This document shows, one piece after another, positions 44,963 to 62,244 of a DNA stretch of 64,000 nt. Each line of letters starts with the position of its first letter. Positions within the stretch are counted from its first letter, which is position 1. Source of the stretch: Pseudoalteromonas luteoviolacea. Lineage in GTDB: Bacteria > Pseudomonadota > Gammaproteobacteria > Enterobacterales > Alteromonadaceae. The stretch spans positions 124,001-188,000 of the forward strand of contig NZ_JAGJEH010000005.1 of NCBI RefSeq assembly GCF_018100925.1, written 5' to 3'. The notes under the pieces were generated by a model. That model saw only the letters and a program-made list of their open reading frames with translations, was not told where the DNA came from and made no database searches. Both the position numbers and the translations under genes were made by a program.

Positions 44963-45949
44963 ATGAGCAGCGATTTCACCTATTCCATTAAGACCATTCG
45001 ATTTGATGAGCACTATTCACCTTCAAACGATACGCGCCTTACTACAAACTTTGCTAATTTGGCGCGTGGTGAAGTACGTCAGGAAAACCTGCGTAAAGCA
45101 ATTAACATGATCAATAACTGTTTTAATAGTCTGGCAAATTGGGATAACCCAAACAAAGACCGCTACGCTGTTGAAATTGATATTGTGCATGTAGACATTG
45201 ATGTTGAAGGCAATGGTGAAACCTTCCCGACTATCGAAGTTTTAAAAACATACATCGTTGATCACCATACGAACAGACGTATCGAAGGTATTGTGGGTAA
45301 CAATTTCTCATCGTATGTACGCGATTACGATTTTAGCGTGCTACTGCGTAAACATAATGAAGGAAAAGATCAGTTTTCTGTGCCAGATAACTATGGTGAA
45401 TTGCACGGTAAAATGTTTCAAGATTTCATTAATTCAAGTGCTTACAAAGAAAACTTTAGTAAGCCGCCTGTCATTTGTTTAAGTGTATCAGACAACAAAA
45501 CCTATCATCGTACAAGTAATACACACCCGATTTTAGGTGTTGAATACACGCCGAATGAATCATCACTGACAGAGCAGTATTTCAAAACAATGGGCATGGA
45601 AGTTCGTTACTTTATGCCTGAAAACAGTGTTGCTCCGTATGCATTCTTTTTCTTCGGTGATCTGTTAAACGATTACAGCACATTGGAGCTGATCAGTACG
45701 CTGAGCACCATGGAAACGTTCCAAAAAATTTATCGCCCAGAGATTTATAACGCGAACTCTACCGCTGGTGAAACTTATAAGCCAAGCCTGAAAAACTTAG
45801 ATTGCTCTTTAACGCAAGTGGTTTATGACCGAGAGGAGCGCGCTCGCCTTGCAATTGAACAAGGCAAGTGGTGCGAAGATAACTTTATTCAGCGACACCA
45901 ATCAACGCTGGAAAAATGGGCCGCTAACTTTGTTCAGCCGTCATTCTGA
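44963..45949 (+). CDS. mesX: DUF1852 protein MesX, partner of the MesD methionine synthase
   Basis: 328 residues, soluble. The sequence (for example TIRFDEHYSPSNDTRLTTNF near the start and RYFMPENSVAPYAFFFFGD in the middle) fits DUF1852. Genes of this family sit next to a core-MetE methionine synthase, and MesX is reported to be needed with MesD for folate- and cobalamin-independent methionine synthesis. Here mesD follows after 24 bases. The biochemical step is not known from the sequence. Confidence 0.82.
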   Translation: MSSDFTYSIKTIRFDEHYSPSNDTRLTTNFANLARGEVRQENLRKAINMINNCFNSLANWDNPNKDRYAVEIDIVHVDIDVEGNGETFPTIEVLKTYIVDHHTNRRIEGIVGNNFSSYVRDYDFSVLLRKHNEGKDQFSVPDNYGELHGKMFQDFINSSAYKENFSKPPVICLSVSDNKTYHRTSNTHPILGVEYTPNESSLTEQYFKTMGMEVRYFMPENSVAPYAFFFFGDLLNDYSTLELISTLSTMETFQKIYRPEIYNANSTAGETYKPSLKNLDCSLTQVVYDREERARLAIEQGKWCEDNFIQRHQSTLEKWAANFVQPSF

Positions 45950-45973
45950 TTTTAAGGTATAGATGCATTAATT

Positions 45974-47002
45974 ATGAAAAAACTATTCCCAACCTCTACC
46001 GCAGGAAGTCTGCCAAAACCATCTTGGTTAGCACAACCTGAACAGCTTTGGTCACCTTGGAAACTAGAAGGTGAAGAACTGATTGCCGGCAAAAAAGACG
46101 CACTGAGAGTAACATTACAAGAACAAGACAGTGCGGGTATTGAAATTGTGAGTGACGGTGAGCAAACACGCCAGCACTTCGTCACCACGTTTATCGAAAA
46201 CTTAAGCGGTGTTGATTTTGAAAATAAGAAAACGGTTCGAATTCGTGACCGCTACGACGCCAGTGTGCCGGGCATTATTGGCCCAGTAAGCCGCCAAAAG
46301 CCGGTGTTTGTTGATGATGCAAAATTTTTACGCTCGCAAACACAGCAGCCAATCAAATGGGCGTTACCTGGGCCGATGACCATGGTAGATACGCTTTATG
46401 ATGATTATTATCAAGACCGTAAAACTCTGGCATTCGAATTTGCTAAAGCATTGAATGAAGAAGCAAAAGAGCTTGAAGCAGCTGGCGTTAATATCATTCA
46501 ATTTGATGAACCTGCGTTCAATGTGTTCCTTGATGAAGTGAACGAGTGGGGTATAGAAGCCCTTGAAATCGCAACCCAAGGGCTTAAGTGCGAAACCGCT
46601 GTACATATTTGCTATGGCTATGGCATCAAAGCAAATACCGATTGGAAGAAAACATTGGGCAATGAGTGGCGTCACTATGAAAAAACCTTTCCAGCTATCC
46701 AACGCTCTAACATCGACATTATTTCTTTAGAATGTCATAACGGGCGAGTGCCTTTAGAAGTTCTGAAATTGCTTAAAGGCAAGAAAGTGATGGTAGGTGC
46801 TATTGATGTAGCTACCAATGACATTGAAACGCCAGAAGAAGTCGCCGACACTATTCGCGAAGCACTTAAATATGTCGATGCCGACAAGCTCTACCCAAGT
46901 ACAAACTGCGGTATGGCACCGCTATCACGAGAAGTAGCGAGAGGCAAATTGCAGGCTTTAGCAGCAGGGGCTGAAATAGTAAGAAAAGAGCTCTCTGCAT
47001 AA
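45974..47002 (+). CDS. mesD: Core-MetE type methionine synthase MesD
   Basis: 342 residues, only the C-terminal catalytic half of MetE, without the N-terminal domain that helps bind methyl-folate. Zinc ligands are visible: His and Cys in AVHICYGYG, Glu in ISLECHNGR and Cys in STNCGMAPLSR. This fits the MesD family, which methylates homocysteine from a donor other than folate. It forms an operon with mesX. The MetR-like regulator and a flavin reductase gene lie nearby, so homocysteine-responsive control is likely. Confidence 0.85.
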   Translation: MKKLFPTSTAGSLPKPSWLAQPEQLWSPWKLEGEELIAGKKDALRVTLQEQDSAGIEIVSDGEQTRQHFVTTFIENLSGVDFENKKTVRIRDRYDASVPGIIGPVSRQKPVFVDDAKFLRSQTQQPIKWALPGPMTMVDTLYDDYYQDRKTLAFEFAKALNEEAKELEAAGVNIIQFDEPAFNVFLDEVNEWGIEALEIATQGLKCETAVHICYGYGIKANTDWKKTLGNEWRHYEKTFPAIQRSNIDIISLECHNGRVPLEVLKLLKGKKVMVGAIDVATNDIETPEEVADTIREALKYVDADKLYPSTNCGMAPLSREVARGKLQALAAGAEIVRKELSA

Positions 47003-47090
47003 TTTCTTCGTTTGTCTTTTACATAACCAACAAGTGGGTTTTCCGTTTGTTGGTTTTATTTATTTCATTTAAACGTTGTTGATTCACACT

Positions 47091-47915
47091 ATGATAGAGT
47101 TTTTAAGCAATAATACTTCAACACTTATCGCGCTGATTGCAACTGGTGCATTTGCGGGGATTTTGGCAGGTTTGTTGGGGGTAGGCGGCGGTATTGTGAT
47201 AGTGCCGGTGCTATTTTTTGTTTTTCAGAGCTTTGGCGTATCGCCTGAGTCGGCCATGGTCATCGCCACCGCGACTTCGTTAGCGACAATTATTCCAACC
47301 TCCATCAGCTCAATTCGCTCGCACAATCAAAAAGGTAATGTAGATTTTGACCTTTTAAAGCGCTGGGCTGTGTTTATATTTATTGGCGTTTTGGCAGGAA
47401 GTTGGCTGGTAACTCGCATCAACGGCGCTTGGTTGACAGGGCTATTTGGTGTGATCGCTACCTTATCAGCCCTGAATATGATGTTTCGAACAGGCAAGTC
47501 AGCTTTATTTCAATCACTACCCGGTAAAGCCGGACAAGCAACAATGAGTACCTCAATCGGGTTTTTCAGCTCAATGGTGGGTATTGGTGGCGGTACTATT
47601 TCTGTTCCATTACTTACGCTTTGTAACTACCCAGCTCACAAAGCTGTGGGTACAGCCGCTGCCATTGGATTAATTATCTCTTTGCCAGGTGCCGCGACTA
47701 TGCTCATTTTAGGTCAGTCACCAGCTGATGCTCCTGTGGGCACGTTCGGACTTGTGAACCTAGTTGCATTTCTATGTATTGTGCCTTTAACCGTGTTATT
47801 TGCGCCAGTTGGCGCATCACTCGCAGCTAAATTAGACGCAACAAAGCTCAAGAAAGTATTTTCTATCGTATTGCTTATTACAGGCATGCGTATGCTAATA
47901 CAATTATTTTTGTAG
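47091..47915 (+). CDS. TauE/SafE family (TSUP) membrane permease
   Basis: 274 residues from the ATG at 47091; a TTG at 47076 is less likely. About eight membrane helices in two repeats, each with the family glycine motif: LGVGGGIVIVP near residue 30 and VGIGGGTISVP near residue 163. Members move sulfite, sulfonates or other organosulfur anions. It is 88 bp after mesD on the same strand, which suggests a link with sulfur metabolism, but the substrate is not shown. Confidence 0.82.
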   Translation: MIEFLSNNTSTLIALIATGAFAGILAGLLGVGGGIVIVPVLFFVFQSFGVSPESAMVIATATSLATIIPTSISSIRSHNQKGNVDFDLLKRWAVFIFIGVLAGSWLVTRINGAWLTGLFGVIATLSALNMMFRTGKSALFQSLPGKAGQATMSTSIGFFSSMVGIGGGTISVPLLTLCNYPAHKAVGTAAAIGLIISLPGAATMLILGQSPADAPVGTFGLVNLVAFLCIVPLTVLFAPVGASLAAKLDATKLKKVFSIVLLITGMRMLIQLFL

Positions 47916-52657: not shown

Positions 52658-54301
52658 ATGTCTAAAAATAAGACGAAAAAACACAATTACAGGATGATAA
52701 TTTCGAAAGATCGCGTAGAAAAATAATGTATGCATTGCCTGCATTAGGCGGTGCGGCGATTTTGGCTTCGACAAAATCAAAAGCTTCTGGAACAGATATT
52801 AGTGCACATACGGTTACGTCTTCTCTTGGCACTCAGTTTTCAACAGTTCCTAGGCCTTTACATGAAAGGTTTACTGATAGAGTTTATGCAAAAGATTTTG
52901 GTGCAACCTATTGGCACCAAGATATGTCTGCTAGTTCTAATATTGAAGGACTAAATGCTGCGTTCGAGTTTGCTAATCAAGAAAGCCACAATGGTGAAAG
53001 AAAAGTTGTTGATTGCGGCCCTTCAAGAATATCTGTAAATAAAAGTTCATCAGCACCGGGCGTTGTTGATTTTCAAACATTAAAGTGGCCGAACAATACA
53101 ACGTTTAATTACACTGGCCCTTCGGGTGAAAATGTACTGTTTTTGAATCATTTTAGTGGCCCTTATGGAGAATATACAGAGGGTGTTCCTGTCAATGAGT
53201 TAAATATCACAGCCCCTTATCATCCTGCGCTAATTTTAAACGTTAAAACGAAAAAGTCTTTTGGTGGGATAGCACAAAAAGCGCATACCGTAGGAGAGGC
53301 CAATAATTCGGTCACAACAGAATCATCAACAATAGGATTTAGAATTGATGACGATAATGTTTGGCAATGGATCGTAAATGGCGATCGGTTATTCCGCAAG
53401 AATTTATGGAGTGAAAGTAAAGGGCTGCTAATTAACCGTTTTGTTATGAGTGGCGACACGGGTGATGTTGGGATACAAAGGGGAAACCCACAGTTTCCAA
53501 TGGATATTGCGGGTGGTATGCGAGTAGTATCAACTGATCAACATGGCCCTGAGTTTAATCAGTATGATAATGTGAATCGTTTTGAGTCACCTGAAGTTGT
53601 TTTAGAAAAAAATATAAAAGGAGTCAGTACAGGCGTAAAGCTCAGTACAGACCCTAAAGGTTTCGACCTTGCATAGAGCTTCCGAAGGCGATGCCTATTT
53701 GTCCTTAAATAAAGGCTTTTTCTATATCGTGAATTCGTATTCACCAAACTGGCAAGGGGCTGCACTAAAACTCGGACACAATTCTCAAACTCAGCGTTCG
53801 ATAAATGTTTCAGGAACTATTAATACTCAGGGTCGAGATTATGCTGAATATATGTTTAAAAACGCATCCTGCGGCGAGATCTTAAAAGGCGATGTATGTG
53901 GCATTGATAATAAAGGGTTACTGACTGATAAGTGGAATGAAGCAATTTCGTTTGTGATAAAGTCGACCAATCCATCATTTGTGGGCGGAGATGATTGGCA
54001 CGAAAAGGTATTAAAACCGATATCTGAGCAGGCTACTGAGCAAGAACGTGAATCATACTTAAAGCGTCTGCAAGAAGAGCGTAAAAAGGTTGATAGAATA
54101 GCTTTCAGTGGACAGGTACCTGTAAATATTATTGACGCCGAGGTGGGCGCTTATTTGGTACCAGTAGAGCGCAATGGAAAAATTGGCGTTATCGCAAAGA
54201 GTAAATCAGATTTATCTATGACTGAGTACATGGACAGTGTTGGAAAAGTTATTGCTATTGGAGATGATGGCAGAACAATAGCCCTTGTTAAGGTTTGCTA
54301 G
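52658..54301 (+). pseudogene. Tat-leader protein with Peptidase_G2-like C-terminus, twice frameshifted
   Basis: Three frames make one gene. ATG at 52658 reads MSKNKTKK. Restoring one A in the A6 run at 52676-52681 joins it to DDNFERSRRKIMYALPALGG, a twin-arginine signal peptide with a hydrophobic core ending KASG. The frame then runs to 53676. A second shift (one base too many near 53661) is needed to reach HRASEGDAYLSLNKGFFYIV in the frame that runs to 54301. The C-terminal part, with GRDYAEYMFKN, GDVCGIDNKG and RIAFSGQVPVNI, resembles the Peptidase_G2/intramolecular chaperone end of phage tail-fibre-like proteins. Full length would be about 545 residues. Confidence 0.55.
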
Positions 54302-57348: not shown

Positions 57349-58248
57349 TCAATTCACTACACCAATTTTCTTTGCAAGTTGTTTGTACCCTTTGATGGTC
57401 TCCTTCACAAATTGTGTCACCGCACTGAGCGAAGCACTCGGAGTTAGGTCTTTCAATGAGGCCAAATCAACTAACTCTTCAACCTTGGCTTCATCTTTGC
57501 TGTAATACAACTGTTCGATTAAATGACCTTCCCCTTTTCCCTGTAAATGTTTCGCGCTGGCTACTTTCATCGAAGTCGCATAGGGATGAAGGTCAACTAG
57601 CATTTGTCCAAGGGCGATTTTATTTAAATAATTCTCGAGACTATCAGCATTCGGCACATTGACATAATTGCTTGCAACTTCGCTATAAAAAGCTTGATAG
57701 TCTGAATTACCCATGGCAGCTGCTAATCCTGTATCGATATGGGGGTCATATAGCGCGCCCAGATCAGCCACTTTCAGCTTGGTAATGTTATTCATGATGG
57801 CGGTTCTTCTGAGACACACGCCCAATATTCTAGCGACGGTATGCGGGCCCTGCATACCACTGACAACGTCAAAAGAATACCGCGTTCTAGTTCGTTTGCT
57901 TTTTATTCTCAGTAGCAATTCATTGACCGCGCCTGCTGCATCCAAAGCTCCGGCTTTGAACAATTTACCAATTTCCTGGCAGTCTTTACTGTAGTCATTG
58001 GCACTGCCACCCCCTTTTTTGGTAAAAGAGAGCGCTTCTTGCAGGGAAAACAGTCGTTGGTTTAACACCGCAGCTCTGCCTGCATCTGGATCGCTGCGAG
58101 TTAGGCTTTGCCCTGGACTTTTCTTGGCATACAAGGCGCTGAGTTCATCACATGTGGCGTTGATGGATTCTTTAATTTCAGTAATGGCTAGAGTATCGTC
58201 GAGTTCATCAGGTAATTTGTAATGGTCGTAAAGTTTGGTCGATTCCAT
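57349..58248 (-). CDS. Orphan helical protein divergent from the NRPS gene
   Basis: 299 residues, soluble, mostly helical, no signal peptide or membrane segment. Features are an N-terminal acidic region (KLPDELDDTLAITEIKESIN), a Gly-rich patch KKGGGSANDYSKDCQ near residue 78, a basic stretch RIKSKRTRTRYSFDV near 113, and a repeat-free helical C-terminus. I do not recognise a family. It is read away from the 1190-residue synthase gene, with a shared upstream region of 423 bp. Confidence 0.6.
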   Translation of the reverse strand: MESTKLYDHYKLPDELDDTLAITEIKESINATCDELSALYAKKSPGQSLTRSDPDAGRAAVLNQRLFSLQEALSFTKKGGGSANDYSKDCQEIGKLFKAGALDAAGAVNELLLRIKSKRTRTRYSFDVVSGMQGPHTVARILGVCLRRTAIMNNITKLKVADLGALYDPHIDTGLAAAMGNSDYQAFYSEVASNYVNVPNADSLENYLNKIALGQMLVDLHPYATSMKVASAKHLQGKGEGHLIEQLYYSKDEAKVEELVDLASLKDLTPSASLSAVTQFVKETIKGYKQLAKKIGVVN

Positions 58249-58671
58249 GTCATATTCTCGTAAACTAAGAGACGGAACATTGTATTTTGCTCATGATGAT
58301 TGAGACTCGGGGAAATGGACGAAAGGATCGCGGTGCTATACGCCATTACTATTTGCGCCAGTTGCTAATTTTAATTGGTGACAACAATTCAAAACTCCAC
58401 ACTGGTTGGAGTCTCAAGCGCAAAGTCGAAATCTCTGTTTTGGGTAATAACACCACAACGCTTTATGAATCCTAATAATCACTAAATTTTTCTGACTTTT
58501 TTGGCTGTTGTTTAATGATTCTCTGTGATTACAAAAAATTAAGCAGAATTAAGTACATATATTAGAAACACCCAATTAACTTAAACGTATTTTACCTACC
58601 TTTCTGATACCTTTTATACCGTGTTTAAGAATAATTAAATCCATAACAAAAACCATAGAAGGAAACGTAAA
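58249..58671. other. Divergent upstream region of the synthase gene
   Basis: 423 bp. The last 150 bp are AT-rich and end in GAAGGAAACG, a ribosome site for the gene at 58672. A 62-codon frame (58287-58475) has no ribosome site and looks spurious. Confidence 0.4.
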
Positions 58672-61600
58672 ATGCACAAGGTTAATAACAATGTAGCTGA
58701 TCATATTGTAAGTGATGAGCATGAAACGATTTATGCCCTTATTAAGCGGCAATCACAGCAGGCCCCAGACAGTATCGCAATTATTGATGGGATTGAAGAA
58801 ATCACCTATACACAACTCATGTCAGCTGCTGGGACAATTGCAGCGACCATTGAAGCCCGGAACATACCGCAGACCTCTCTTATTGCTGTGTGCATGTCGA
58901 GAAAGTGGCAATTAATTGCTGCAATGATTGGCATACACAAGGCCGGCTGTGCATACATCCCACTTGATCCAAGCTATCCAAAAAGCCGTGTGGAGTATAT
59001 GTTGTCTCACTCGAAGGCACAGGCTGCTATTGTCGACAGCAGTGATACGGCTGCCCTTTGTGCAAATGTGGAAACCTGCATTAGTCTGAGTTCGCTTGAT
59101 TTATTCCAACGTAGTGCTGAATCCAATCATTGGCCAAAATACAATGATTTGGCCTACGTTATTTACACCTCGGGTTCTACAGGAAACCCTAAGGGGGTGG
59201 CAGTTGAACATCAAAACCTCGTGGCTATGAGCCATGCTTTAAGTCATTTGTTCGGACCGCAGGAGTTAGAAGGGGTATTGGCTGCAGCGTCAGTGTGTTT
59301 TGATACATCCGTGATGGAGACTCTAGGCACCTTGTCTTTGGGCGGCACAGTTATTCTTGCCCAAAATGCGCTCGCGCTTACATCATTGCCTCATGCAAAT
59401 AAAGTTAAAGCCTGTGTTATGGTGCCCTCATCGATGCAGGCAATACTCAATAGCGGGTCATTGCCAGAAAATATCGAATGTGTGGTATTTGGTGGAGAAG
59501 CGCTTAAATCTGCACTGGTTGATAAAGTGCACAATCTCAGCCCAAGGCCACGTGTGGTCAATGCCTATGGTCCCACTGAAGACACCATATTTTCAACGTT
59601 AAAAGACATTGCAGTGGGCGCAAAAACGATCCCAATAGGTCGACCAGTTGGCAACTCGGTCGCATACATATTGGATGACGCACTTCAGCCCGTCGGTCAG
59701 GGAGTGGCAGGGGAACTTTGTCTTGGCGGTGATAAGTTGGCAAGAGGATATTTAAATGATGACGAACAAACGCGCGCTCGTTTTGTTGAAGTACAAGTCG
59801 ATGAACACACACCCAAGCAGAGGCTCTACAAAACCGGTGATTTATGCTGTTGGAATGATGACGGAGACATTGAGTTTTTAGGGAGAATAGATCAACAGGT
59901 AAAGATCCGTGGGTTCAGAATTGAGTTGGGTGAAATAGAATCAAAGATCGAGTCACTACCATTTATTCGCGCAGCCGCCGTGAGCGCTGTAGAGAGTGAT
60001 TCAGGGCAAAAGTCACTCGTAGCATATTTGGTAGAGCAACAAGGTGCGCCTAGCCATGAGGATTTAAAGTCGTTGCTTTTAGCGCAGTTACCGAGTTACA
60101 TGGTGCCGCAACTTTATATGTCTTTGGACGCACTTCCACTGTTACCCAATGACAAGTTAGATCGCAGTAAGCTACCCGATTTGGCCGAAGTAAGACGCGC
60201 AAGTCAAACTCACCAATTAGTTCAAAGCAAACACCTTAATCATGCGCAATTCTCCGAGACGATTTCTCTTATTCAACAATCGGTTGCAGCATTATTGGGT
60301 GTCACGGATCTGACTTTGGTGAATCAGGATAACAGCTTTGAAAGTTTAGGGGTTGACTCGTTGAGTCTGATGGAGCTTGCAAGCAGAATAAACAGCGCGC
60401 TTGGCTCATCTTTGACTCCTGCCATCATTTTAACTTTTCCAACCCCCGCATTGCTTGCAAATCATTTATTGGCTGGTCATTCGCAAGCGCGGTTGAATGC
60501 AAATGAGGCTACACATGATGTAGAAACATTAAGCCAATTTCAAACCTTATTGCAATCCAGCCACCCGACATTCGGCTGTGCAAGTGTGCAAGCCTGGAGT
60601 ATTGACGATAAAAGCGTGTTAGTTGAAGCGATATTAAGCATGGTCAACCAGTTACGACGGAACCCCTATGGCAAGGTGCTACACACGGGCAGCGCGTCTA
60701 GGGGTCTGATAGGTGACAGTTACAATGATGAACAGCAAGAATCCATAATTTGGTCCACTAACCTATATTTTGGATTTAATCGTGACCCGCATGTTATCGC
60801 GCAAGCAACTGATGCACTACAAACTTATGGCACAGGTATGGGGATATCGGCAGCTGCCACAGGCATGACAGGACAACATGTCGAGTTCGAAAAAGAGTTT
60901 GCCAAACTCGTTGGCAAAGACTGTGCTTGCCTTTTTCCAACAGGTTATACGGCAAATCTGGGCGCAATTTCTGGGATCCTTGGACCAAATGATGTTGTTG
61001 TGATCGACCAGCTTTGTCATGCCTCTATTGTTGACGGTGCTAGATTGAGTGGTGCAACTATTCGCACGTTTAAACACAATGACAAAGCCGACCTTGCAAG
61101 CGTTTTGGCACAGGAGCAATCTCCATATCGCACTACTTTAGTCGTATTAGAGAGTGTGTACAGCATGGGAGAGGGCATCGCACCAGTTGCAGAGATAGTA
61201 ACAACCGCAAAGCAATATGGTGCGCTTGTTTTGGTAGATGAAGCCCACTCTTTTGGCTTCTACGGCGAGCGAGGTGCTGGCGTTTGTGCGCAACAGGGAG
61301 TTAGCGATCAGGTCGACTTTATTATGACGACTTTAAGTAAGGCGATGGGGAGTATTGGGGGAGTTATCGCAGCTAGTGAAAAGCATGTAAACCTGCTTAA
61401 ATCGGCGTCGAGAGCTTATATCTTTCAAGCATCTATTAGCCCAGCGGATATTGCCGCCGCGCTGGCGTCACTGCGTATTCTACAGAGTGACGATGCAATG
61501 AGGGCGCAGCTTTGGGATCGTACACGTTATATGCGCAATAAATTCAAGCAAGCAGGTTTTGATCTTGGTACAGGCGATGGGCCAATAGTGACGCCTCACT

Positions 61601-62244
61601 TTGGAGACAAAGACAAGTTATATGCCATAGTTCAAAGTTTGTATCAACGAGGTGTGCAAACCTTGGCGGTAACTTATCCCATTGTTGAAAAAGGGCGTGG
61701 GCGTTTGCGGTTTATTTGCTCGGCATCACATACCTATGAGGATATTGATTATACAGTTAATGCGCTCATCGAAGCTGAGCAGGAAGTCAATGCGTATTTT
61801 GCTCAGCTTTCACAAAGTAGCAGTTATACAGCGGTAGAGGAGTTTGCTATCGCATCACCTAATTTTAAACGCTGGTTAGATGGATTCGTCCGTTATCTCA
61901 GGGCTTACCTACGGAGCAATACAAAGCAGCCTGAGTTAGCCGTTTCTATATGCCTTAACTCAAATGACCCCGCAGTTACTCTGGTGATAAAAAATGATCA
62001 AGTGGATATTCAGTGTGGTCAAAAGAGCAATTTAGCATGTTGTGAGTTGTATATCACAAGCCTACAGACTCTAGAGGCGCTAATCACGGGTAATGTGCAG
62101 GCTTTACTTGAAGCTGTGTGTCAAAGTGGCTGTACTTTGAAAGGGCAGACAGAAGCGTTTATATGGTTTATGGCAAGGTTTATTGAGCAAAGTAGTAACC
62201 GCGCAAGTACTCACCAAAATCGCGAAGTAGCAGAGCTTATTTAG
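58672..62244 (+). CDS. Hybrid NRPS: adenylation, carrier, alpha-oxoamine synthase, SCP2-like domain
   Basis: 1190 residues. Domain 1 (about 15-510) is an amino-acid adenylation domain: A3 TSGSTGNPKG near 164, FDTS with the amine-binding Asp near 211, A5 NAYGPTED near 296, A7 YKTGDLC near 386, A8 KIRGFRIELGE near 410, and A10 NDKLDRSKL near 493 with its Lys. Domain 2 is a carrier with LGVDSLSL (Ser about 561). Domain 3 (about 650-1040) is a PLP alpha-oxoamine synthase of the BioF/CqsA type: FPTGYTANLGAI, LVDEAHSFGFYGERG and TLSKAMGSIGG with the PLP Lys near 889. The last ~120 residues resemble an SCP2 sterol-carrier fold. No condensation or thioesterase domain is present. Predicted to make an aminoketone by decarboxylative condensation; the product is unknown. 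Confidence 0.85.
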   Translation: MHKVNNNVADHIVSDEHETIYALIKRQSQQAPDSIAIIDGIEEITYTQLMSAAGTIAATIEARNIPQTSLIAVCMSRKWQLIAAMIGIHKAGCAYIPLDPSYPKSRVEYMLSHSKAQAAIVDSSDTAALCANVETCISLSSLDLFQRSAESNHWPKYNDLAYVIYTSGSTGNPKGVAVEHQNLVAMSHALSHLFGPQELEGVLAAASVCFDTSVMETLGTLSLGGTVILAQNALALTSLPHANKVKACVMVPSSMQAILNSGSLPENIECVVFGGEALKSALVDKVHNLSPRPRVVNAYGPTEDTIFSTLKDIAVGAKTIPIGRPVGNSVAYILDDALQPVGQGVAGELCLGGDKLARGYLNDDEQTRARFVEVQVDEHTPKQRLYKTGDLCCWNDDGDIEFLGRIDQQVKIRGFRIELGEIESKIESLPFIRAAAVSAVESDSGQKSLVAYLVEQQGAPSHEDLKSLLLAQLPSYMVPQLYMSLDALPLLPNDKLDRSKLPDLAEVRRASQTHQLVQSKHLNHAQFSETISLIQQSVAALLGVTDLTLVNQDNSFESLGVDSLSLMELASRINSALGSSLTPAIILTFPTPALLANHLLAGHSQARLNANEATHDVETLSQFQTLLQSSHPTFGCASVQAWSIDDKSVLVEAILSMVNQLRRNPYGKVLHTGSASRGLIGDSYNDEQQESIIWSTNLYFGFNRDPHVIAQATDALQTYGTGMGISAAATGMTGQHVEFEKEFAKLVGKDCACLFPTGYTANLGAISGILGPNDVVVIDQLCHASIVDGARLSGATIRTFKHNDKADLASVLAQEQSPYRTTLVVLESVYSMGEGIAPVAEIVTTAKQYGALVLVDEAHSFGFYGERGAGVCAQQGVSDQVDFIMTTLSKAMGSIGGVIAASEKHVNLLKSASRAYIFQASISPADIAAALASLRILQSDDAMRAQLWDRTRYMRNKFKQAGFDLGTGDGPIVTPHFGDKDKLYAIVQSLYQRGVQTLAVTYPIVEKGRGRLRFICSASHTYEDIDYTVNALIEAEQEVNAYFAQLSQSSSYTAVEEFAIASPNFKRWLDGFVRYLRAYLRSNTKQPELAVSICLNSNDPAVTLVIKNDQVDIQCGQKSNLACCELYITSLQTLEALITGNVQALLEAVCQSGCTLKGQTEAFIWFMARFIEQSSNRASTHQNREVAELI

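Follow-up and report, generated by a model that had tools for sequence, protein, structure and literature searches.

A candidate one-protein, carrier-tethered alpha-oxoamine synthase with an SCP2-like tail in Pseudoalteromonas luteoviolacea

In alpha-oxoamine synthases (AOS), an amino acid bound to pyridoxal phosphate (PLP) attacks a thioester, and the resulting beta-keto acid then loses CO2 (PMC11906848). AOS of the serine palmitoyltransferase type can use acyl groups delivered on a dedicated carrier, onto which a dedicated ligase has loaded them (PMC9386255). Here, we describe a gene from the Pseudoalteromonas luteoviolacea group in which an adenylation (A) domain, a carrier (T) domain, an AOS domain and a tail resembling SCP2 are predicted to be joined in a single chain. 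The gene occupies positions 58672-62244 (+) of a 64,000-nucleotide stretch of contig NZ_JAGJEH010000005.1, which was analysed as a whole and is called the window below.

Several described systems share part of this arrangement. In the AcpR/AasR/serine palmitoyltransferase system of alpha-, beta- and gamma-Proteobacteria, a ligase-loaded carrier likewise feeds an AOS, but the system consists of three separate proteins and works with fatty acids, and no SCP2-like tail is mentioned in its description (PMC9386255). BioWF of Corynebacterium amycolatum also unites an acid-activating enzyme with an AOS, works as one chain and makes aminoketones. In contrast to the window protein, however, it is a di-domain enzyme without carrier or tail, and its BioW-type ligase takes pimelate and fatty acids (PMC9544090). 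The SgaAB polyketide synthase and its AOS similarly pair an assembly-line enzyme with a serine-using AOS, whereas the chain in that case is a polyketide, two proteins are involved and the product is a sphingolipid (PMC12134224).

The nearest relatives of the AOS domain that we found, in Rhizobium rhizoryzae (L078) and Photobacterium damselae (L079), matched at 44% and 39%, respectively (blastp). They share with the window protein the residue pair S-A, where other aligned AOS have S-R, V-R and the like, but they are stand-alone frames of 428 and 440 amino acids, in surroundings without an annotated adenylation or carrier gene. A carrier fused directly to an AOS also occurs in another homologue (L097), which we take to be a PigH-type protein of prodiginine/tambjamine clusters, with two acyl carrier protein (ACP) domains followed by the AOS (ACP-ACP-AOS). 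In PigH-type proteins, a separate polyketide synthase provides the acyl group; L097 further differs from the window gene in that it lies in a cluster and in that its AOS groups elsewhere in the AOS tree. In the open-licence literature searched, which was mostly seen as listings, no description of the A-T-AOS-SCP2-like combination was found. The parts are known, and their combination appears to be new.

The gene is a single open reading frame with an ATG start that encodes 1190 amino acids. Its parts, in window positions, are as follows:

58672..62244 (+), whole gene, A-T-AOS-SCP2-like, from the open reading frame, Pfam, NCBIfam and the shared layout
58729..60171 (+), adenylation domain, residues about 20-500, from Pfam and NCBIfam
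60268..60468 (+), carrier (T) domain, residues 533-599, from Pfam and its motif
60469..60726 (+), linker, residues 600-685, 30-94% identical between the window protein and its 22 relatives
60727..61791 (+), AOS domain, residues 686-1040, from Pfam, NCBIfam and alignments
61792..62205 (+), SCP2-like tail, residues 1041-1178, from an AlphaFold2 model, fold matches and conservation

Pfam placed AMP-binding at residues 25-361 (249.9 bits), AMP-binding_C at residues 421-494, PP-binding (PF00550) at residues 533-599 (50.6 bits, cut-off 20.8) and Aminotran_1_2 (PF00155) at residues 692-1032 (165.4 bits). Comparisons were made within a set of 23 full-length members, comprising the window protein, 21 others of the genus and one from a genome of another family (G783); the homologue in genome G441 was left out. 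An initial annotation of the window had proposed a single open reading frame with the domain order A-T-AOS and without condensation or release domain. Pfam, NCBIfam and the 23 full-length members bear out the frame and the order, and no condensation, thioesterase or reductase family was present among the ten Pfam families that match the 1190-residue protein at E up to 0.1. Because the Pfam scan revealed A and T domains without a condensation domain, we class the protein as similar to a nonribosomal peptide synthetase (NRPS-like) rather than as an NRPS module. The domain order is common to the window protein and its 22 full-length relatives. Since they all keep this layout, and since their ratios of nonsynonymous to synonymous substitution rates (dN/dS) are low, the layout is not due to chance. 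The closest named relative in a collection scan with a single-sequence query came from P. luteoviolacea NCIMB 1944 (90% identity). The genome encodes two proteins of PF01648, the phosphopantetheinyl transferase family.

We propose that the gene encodes a one-protein, carrier-tethered AOS that would release an alpha,alpha'-diaminoketone, and we consider the chances that this proposal is right to be even. In the first step, as suggested by the motifs in A and T, an alpha-amino acid, probably a hydrophobic one, would be converted to its aminoacyl-AMP by the A domain, and the aminoacyl group would then be loaded on the phosphopantetheine of Ser563. In the second step, for which we draw on the intact AOS motifs and the known chemistry of the AOS family, a further amino acid that is free, most likely Ser, Ala or Gly, would give a PLP quinonoid on the AOS domain. 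This quinonoid would attack the aminoacyl thioester, whereupon CO2 would be lost, the carrier freed and the alpha,alpha'-diaminoketone released. In a third, speculative step, the SCP2-like tail may hold a hydrophobic substrate or product, or present it to the membrane or a partner. The released ketone may act as such, or may cyclise or oxidise unaided; a signal, a pyrazine or a pyrroline as the product is a guess. A broader form of the proposal, to which we give slightly less than even chances, is that one stand-alone protein joins two amino acids by a C-C bond, with no peptide bond, into alpha,alpha'-diaminoketones, where the A domain varies by clade and sets one half of the product and the conserved AOS sets the other.

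The proposed reaction departs from the initial annotation, in which the loaded amino acid was decarboxylated on release, the tail was taken as a sign of a lipid or acyl-CoA partner, and a simple aminoketone was the product. CO2 can only be lost from a free carboxylate, which leaves the T-bound amino acid the role of acyl donor, and it is the free amino acid that the AOS would decarboxylate. Therefore, no acyl-CoA would be needed, and two amino acids would give an alpha,alpha'-diaminoketone. The opposite assignment, in which the AOS uses an external acyl-CoA and decarboxylates the T-bound amino acid, is in keeping with that earlier reading of the tail, but we consider it highly improbable, because the carboxylate of the T-bound amino acid is tied up in the thioester and the PLP aldimine needs a free amino acid (PMC11906848).

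The AOS domain contains the PLP lysine and the histidine and aspartate of its family, as seen from PF00155, from the alignment with solved serine palmitoyltransferases and from the motifs HASIVDG, DEAHSFG and TLSK, which are kept in 23/23 members. The residues concerned are Lys890 (codon 61339-61341), His783, Asp856, His859 and Arg1013. Solved serine palmitoyltransferases were the top sequence matches of the domain. Results for NCBIfam models of AOS and acyl-CoA ligases refer to the best 25 of 131 matches listed. Among these, the AOS domain scored 325.1 bits with the serine palmitoyltransferase model NF047599 (cut-off 500), 322 bits with the BioF model TIGR00858 (cut-off 426.45), 315.7 bits with the glycine C-acetyltransferase model (below its cut-off) and 204.2 bits with the CqsA-type model NF005526 (cut-off 428). 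Because every AOS model listed scored below its cut-off, the sequence assigns the domain to no subfamily named there. CqsA, with which the protein had initially been compared, is an AOS autoinducer synthase encoded by a stand-alone gene, with a small-molecule product and without A or T domain; by the score of its model, which lies below the cut-off and below the scores of the serine palmitoyltransferase and BioF models, the AOS domain is not CqsA-like.

The gate residue for amino-acid entry is Val79 in ThAOS and Ser in serine palmitoyltransferase and AONS, and R378 and R390 are named for carboxylate recognition in the serine palmitoyltransferase of S. paucimobilis (PMC11906848). By alignment, the gate position of the window protein is Ser726, as in serine palmitoyltransferase and AONS, which favours the proposed reaction. 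Furthermore, Arg1013, which is invariant in five aligned sequences, aligns with R390 as the putative carboxylate-binding arginine.

The A domain matched the NCBIfam amino-acid adenylation domain TIGR01733 with 390.9 bits (cut-off 317.4), whereas acyl-CoA ligase models scored at most 199.4 bits, below their own cut-offs. Asp211 of the A pocket is kept in 23/23 full-length members and Lys495 is invariant in five aligned sequences. By the GrsA mapping, we take these positions to be those of the invariant residue pair in the pockets of A domains that activate amino acids. The phosphopantetheine site, Ser563 (codon 60358-60360), lies in a G-[VIL]-D-S-L motif in 23/23 members. The conservation throughout the set of the pocket Asp, the carrier Ser and the Lys, His and Asp motifs of the AOS argues for the diaminoketone.

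Presuming the motif spacing of GrsA, the P. luteoviolacea group has the pocket code D-T-M-M-V-G-A-I/V-F-K, and most of the second clade, in which L094 deviates, has D-P-M-A/G-(I,V,L)-G-V-V-F-K; the final Lys of these codes was checked in five sequences. Between the two main clades, the A pocket has diverged much more than the AOS, which suggests that the first half of the product varies while the second stays constant. Naming the loaded amino acid from the pocket code was attempted and dropped, as no code string was found in the literature searched.

The AOS enzymes of PMC9386255, PMC9544090, PMC12134224 and PMC11906848 use acyl groups without an alpha-amine. The A domain of the window protein might likewise load an acid that lacks an alpha-amino group (aryl, beta-amino or branched), which would give a mono-aminoketone, as with PigH, serine palmitoyltransferase and CqsA. 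The pocket with Met or small residues, whose code did not appear in the literature searched, would allow for this, as would the T motif G-x-D-S-L, which looks ACP-like. However, an Asp stands in 23/23 members at what we take to be the alpha-amine-binding place, and it is the amino-acid model TIGR01733, rather than any listed acyl-CoA ligase model, that exceeded its cut-off. We therefore regard loading of such an acid as unlikely.

The AlphaFold2 model of the tail (residues 1041-1178) contains helices within residues 1053-1082, four strands, two helices, a short strand and a helix; its first 16 residues have a predicted local distance difference test score (pLDDT) <50. In a Foldseek search with this model, SCP2 ranked first (E 8.9e-4) as the sole row <0.001. 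The best 33 rows consisted of SCP2, SCP2-like and UbiJ-SCP2 proteins or of alkylsulfatase-type hydrolases, which we assume to carry an SCP2-like domain and which, in VIA-align, align to the tail with their C-terminal part. VIA-align gave Z up to 9.7 (118 residues aligned, root-mean-square deviation 3.1 A), with Z >=8 for 16/997 chains, to be read against the best Z values of 7-8 that are common by chance for models without a clear match. The leading VIA-align rows are consistently one fold. With moderate confidence, the tail is thus predicted to adopt the SCP2 fold. The initial annotation would have been contradicted by a C-terminus of another structure, and AlphaFold2, Foldseek and VIA-align instead agree with its SCP2-like tail.

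Several results, in addition to the chance level of Z, weigh against the proposed carrier-tethered AOS with its SCP2-like tail. The best tail model, from five sequences, had a moderate mean pLDDT of 74.7, and the other four ranged from 63.8 to 50.8. A full-length fold prediction (pLDDT 36.6) was not used and gives no view of domain packing. In Pfam, PF02036 did not match the window's own tail, nor was this match seen in the whole-genome search at E up to 10. The family matched 2/23 tails (best E 0.027) and missed 21/23, and the unrelated family PF14611 scored better in the 2/23 tails that it matched (best E 0.0022). Searching the PDB sequences with a profile of the tail yielded no SCP2, the top match being a tautomerase (E 0.65), and hhalign found no match between the tail profile and the genome's own PF02036 protein, presumably UbiJ. 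As an identification from sequence, SCP2 was therefore unconvincing by Pfam, by the PDB profile search and by hhalign; it is the predicted structure, and not these searches, that supports it. In the AOS domain, Ala727 is found where the aligned serine palmitoyltransferases and KBL-like proteins have Arg after the gate residue, and the equivalent of R378 is Thr1001, a position that is also not Arg in 3a2b. Because Ala727 and Thr1001 replace Arg, the substrate set of the AOS may differ. Finally, none of six pocket-code strings was found in the literature searched, and a hydrophobic substrate of the A domain is predicted from a resemblance of the pocket code.

Identity to the window protein among the 22 other members was 68-97% in the AOS domain, 44-91% in the A domain and 21-70% in the tail. 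For ten chosen pairs, dN/dS was 0.02-0.13 in the AOS, 0.08-0.17 in the A domain and 0.19-0.56 in the tail, with the caveats that some dS values approach or exceed 1 and that the tail is a short sequence. By these comparisons, the gene is under purifying selection and the tail is its fastest-changing part. Such rapid change would suit a tail without ligand that serves passively in oligomerisation or stability. However, dN/dS is <1 in 10/10 pairs, and seven positions, including Gly1158, Glu1161 and Trp1165, are invariant in the 23 tails. Furthermore, the predicted fold is that of a ligand-binding family, which the alkylsulfatase-type enzymes match with their C-terminal part. We give a passive tail somewhat less than even chances.

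Third-position identity along the gene was mosaic in some pairs. For the pair L027 and L084, the A domain showed 44-75% and the tail 95-100%, and this mosaic makes it likely that recombination has taken place inside the gene.

In a tree of 41 AOS domains, from which 12 near-duplicate reference rows had been left out beforehand, the A-T-AOS-SCP2-like family formed one clade (support 100/100). Its sister group was the plasmid-borne pair L078 and L079 (100/98), and together they joined a group that we read as serine-palmitoyltransferase-like (97/79, not starred), where long branches flagged at the joins make the sister groups less sure than the family clade. In L080, a member of the serine-palmitoyltransferase-like group, the AOS gene has genes for a fatty acyl-AMP ligase and an ACP next to it. 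This placement in the tree and the matches to solved serine palmitoyltransferases count in favour of the proposed carrier-dependent reaction. The sister AOS of Rhizobium rhizoryzae (L078, 7851-9137) stands alone on a 54-kb plasmid with phage-type lysozyme and holin genes and a ParA-family gene, and that of Photobacterium damselae (L079) is located on a conjugative plasmid.

Homologues were found in 23/108 Pseudoalteromonas genomes, the window's own included, with that of G441 present only as a 467-residue frame. A search with the tail matched 25/108 genomes of the genus, where the matches in G437 and G455 were weak (E >0.002, no long frame). Outside the genus, the gene was found in G783 (L081, 7986-11663), which made 1/40 genomes positive in the family of that genome. 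Because the 39 others searched in that family are without the gene at E 1e-150, its occurrence in G783 points to horizontal transfer.

Wider samples were taken at the level of family, order, class and phylum, with two or three top candidates scored in each genome. In the family sample, 7/395 genomes matched at E 1e-150, all of them Pseudoalteromonas. The class sample yielded only the own genome (1/369 at E 1e-110), and the phylum sample the own genome and one with A-T matches without AOS (2/398 at E 1e-105). In the order sample, 26/394 genomes passed a looser limit, but carrier, AOS and tail occurred together only in the own genome, in G433 of the same genus and in G783; the other matches start past the carrier and do not reach beyond residue 533 of the 658 in the query, and are hence without the tail. 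At these limits, the other genera in these four samples gave no homologue except in G783. Other phyla were covered by the single-sequence collection scan and by plasmids. Among the plasmids, 712 records matched a T-AOS-tail query, of which 0/712 cover 80% in one place. Seven of the 20 listed plasmid matches were examined (H1, H2, H3, H4, H6, H8, H11), and represented stand-alone AOS genes, a prodiginine-type cluster, a polyketide synthase and one record without annotation there. Within the searches made, no homologue turned up in any pathway of known product; such a homologue would have spoken against the initial annotation.

Neighbouring genes were clustered for 23 loci, using up to five open reading frames per side and fewer at the ends of stretches; the window provided two downstream. 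The widest neighbour families are common to 8/23 loci, and since these are the same eight for the three largest families, they represent one syntenic group; the remaining loci have differing neighbours. Because no neighbour family is common to more than 8/23 loci, this is a conserved stand-alone gene without a common partner gene, in line with the initial view that the protein acts alone. The shared neighbours resemble what we take to be a formyltetrahydrofolate deformylase, a LysR regulator and a glycosyltransferase, which are ordinary genes. Alternatively, the protein could be a supplier in a larger pathway encoded elsewhere, passing its aminoketone to trans-acting enzymes of an NRPS-rich genome with many NRPS-type adenylation domains on several contigs. 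The lack of a neighbour family shared beyond the eight loci argues against such a role, as does the presence of the gene in G783 while 39 other genomes of that family are without it, as expected of a self-contained gene. We consider a supplier role rather unlikely.

A GH18 chitinase, a small TonB_C protein and a 299-residue protein (57349-58248, -) with no match in Pfam, PHROGs or PADLOC are encoded directly around the window gene. One upstream feature was noted:

58585..58622 (+), upstream stretch TCTGATACCTTT, candidate promoter region, exact in 7/9 P. luteoviolacea-group members

The members of the group that share this region occupy at least four different neighbourhoods, and the stretch is absent from the more distant L023 and L081. 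A search for an empty site, comparing one relative's locus with the own genome, found the flanks on different contigs and no simple empty site.

Elsewhere in the window, two overlapping frames (52726-53676 and 53669-54301, +) may be one gene split by a frameshift; the second of these matches positions 549-631 of the 794-residue phage family phrog_34132 (E 3.2e-43). A MesX oxygenase, a cobalamin-independent methionine-synthase-type protein and a TauE/SafE exporter are encoded in series at 44963-47915 (+). Beyond the window, contigs C5, C7, C23 and others of the genome are rich in NRPS-type adenylation domains, and an own-genome search gave 56 matches to the query, including the gene itself and some AOS and ligase-type matches.

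If the proposed reaction is correct, aminoacyl thioesters would be the substrates of a PLP-dependent, C-C bond-forming enzyme within one protein of an estimated ~130 kDa. This would provide a compact route to diaminoketones and to the heterocycles formed from them. About a fifth of the Pseudoalteromonas genomes searched (23/108) would then possess a self-contained small-molecule gene, and its tail would be a lipid-carrier fold recruited to an assembly-line enzyme.

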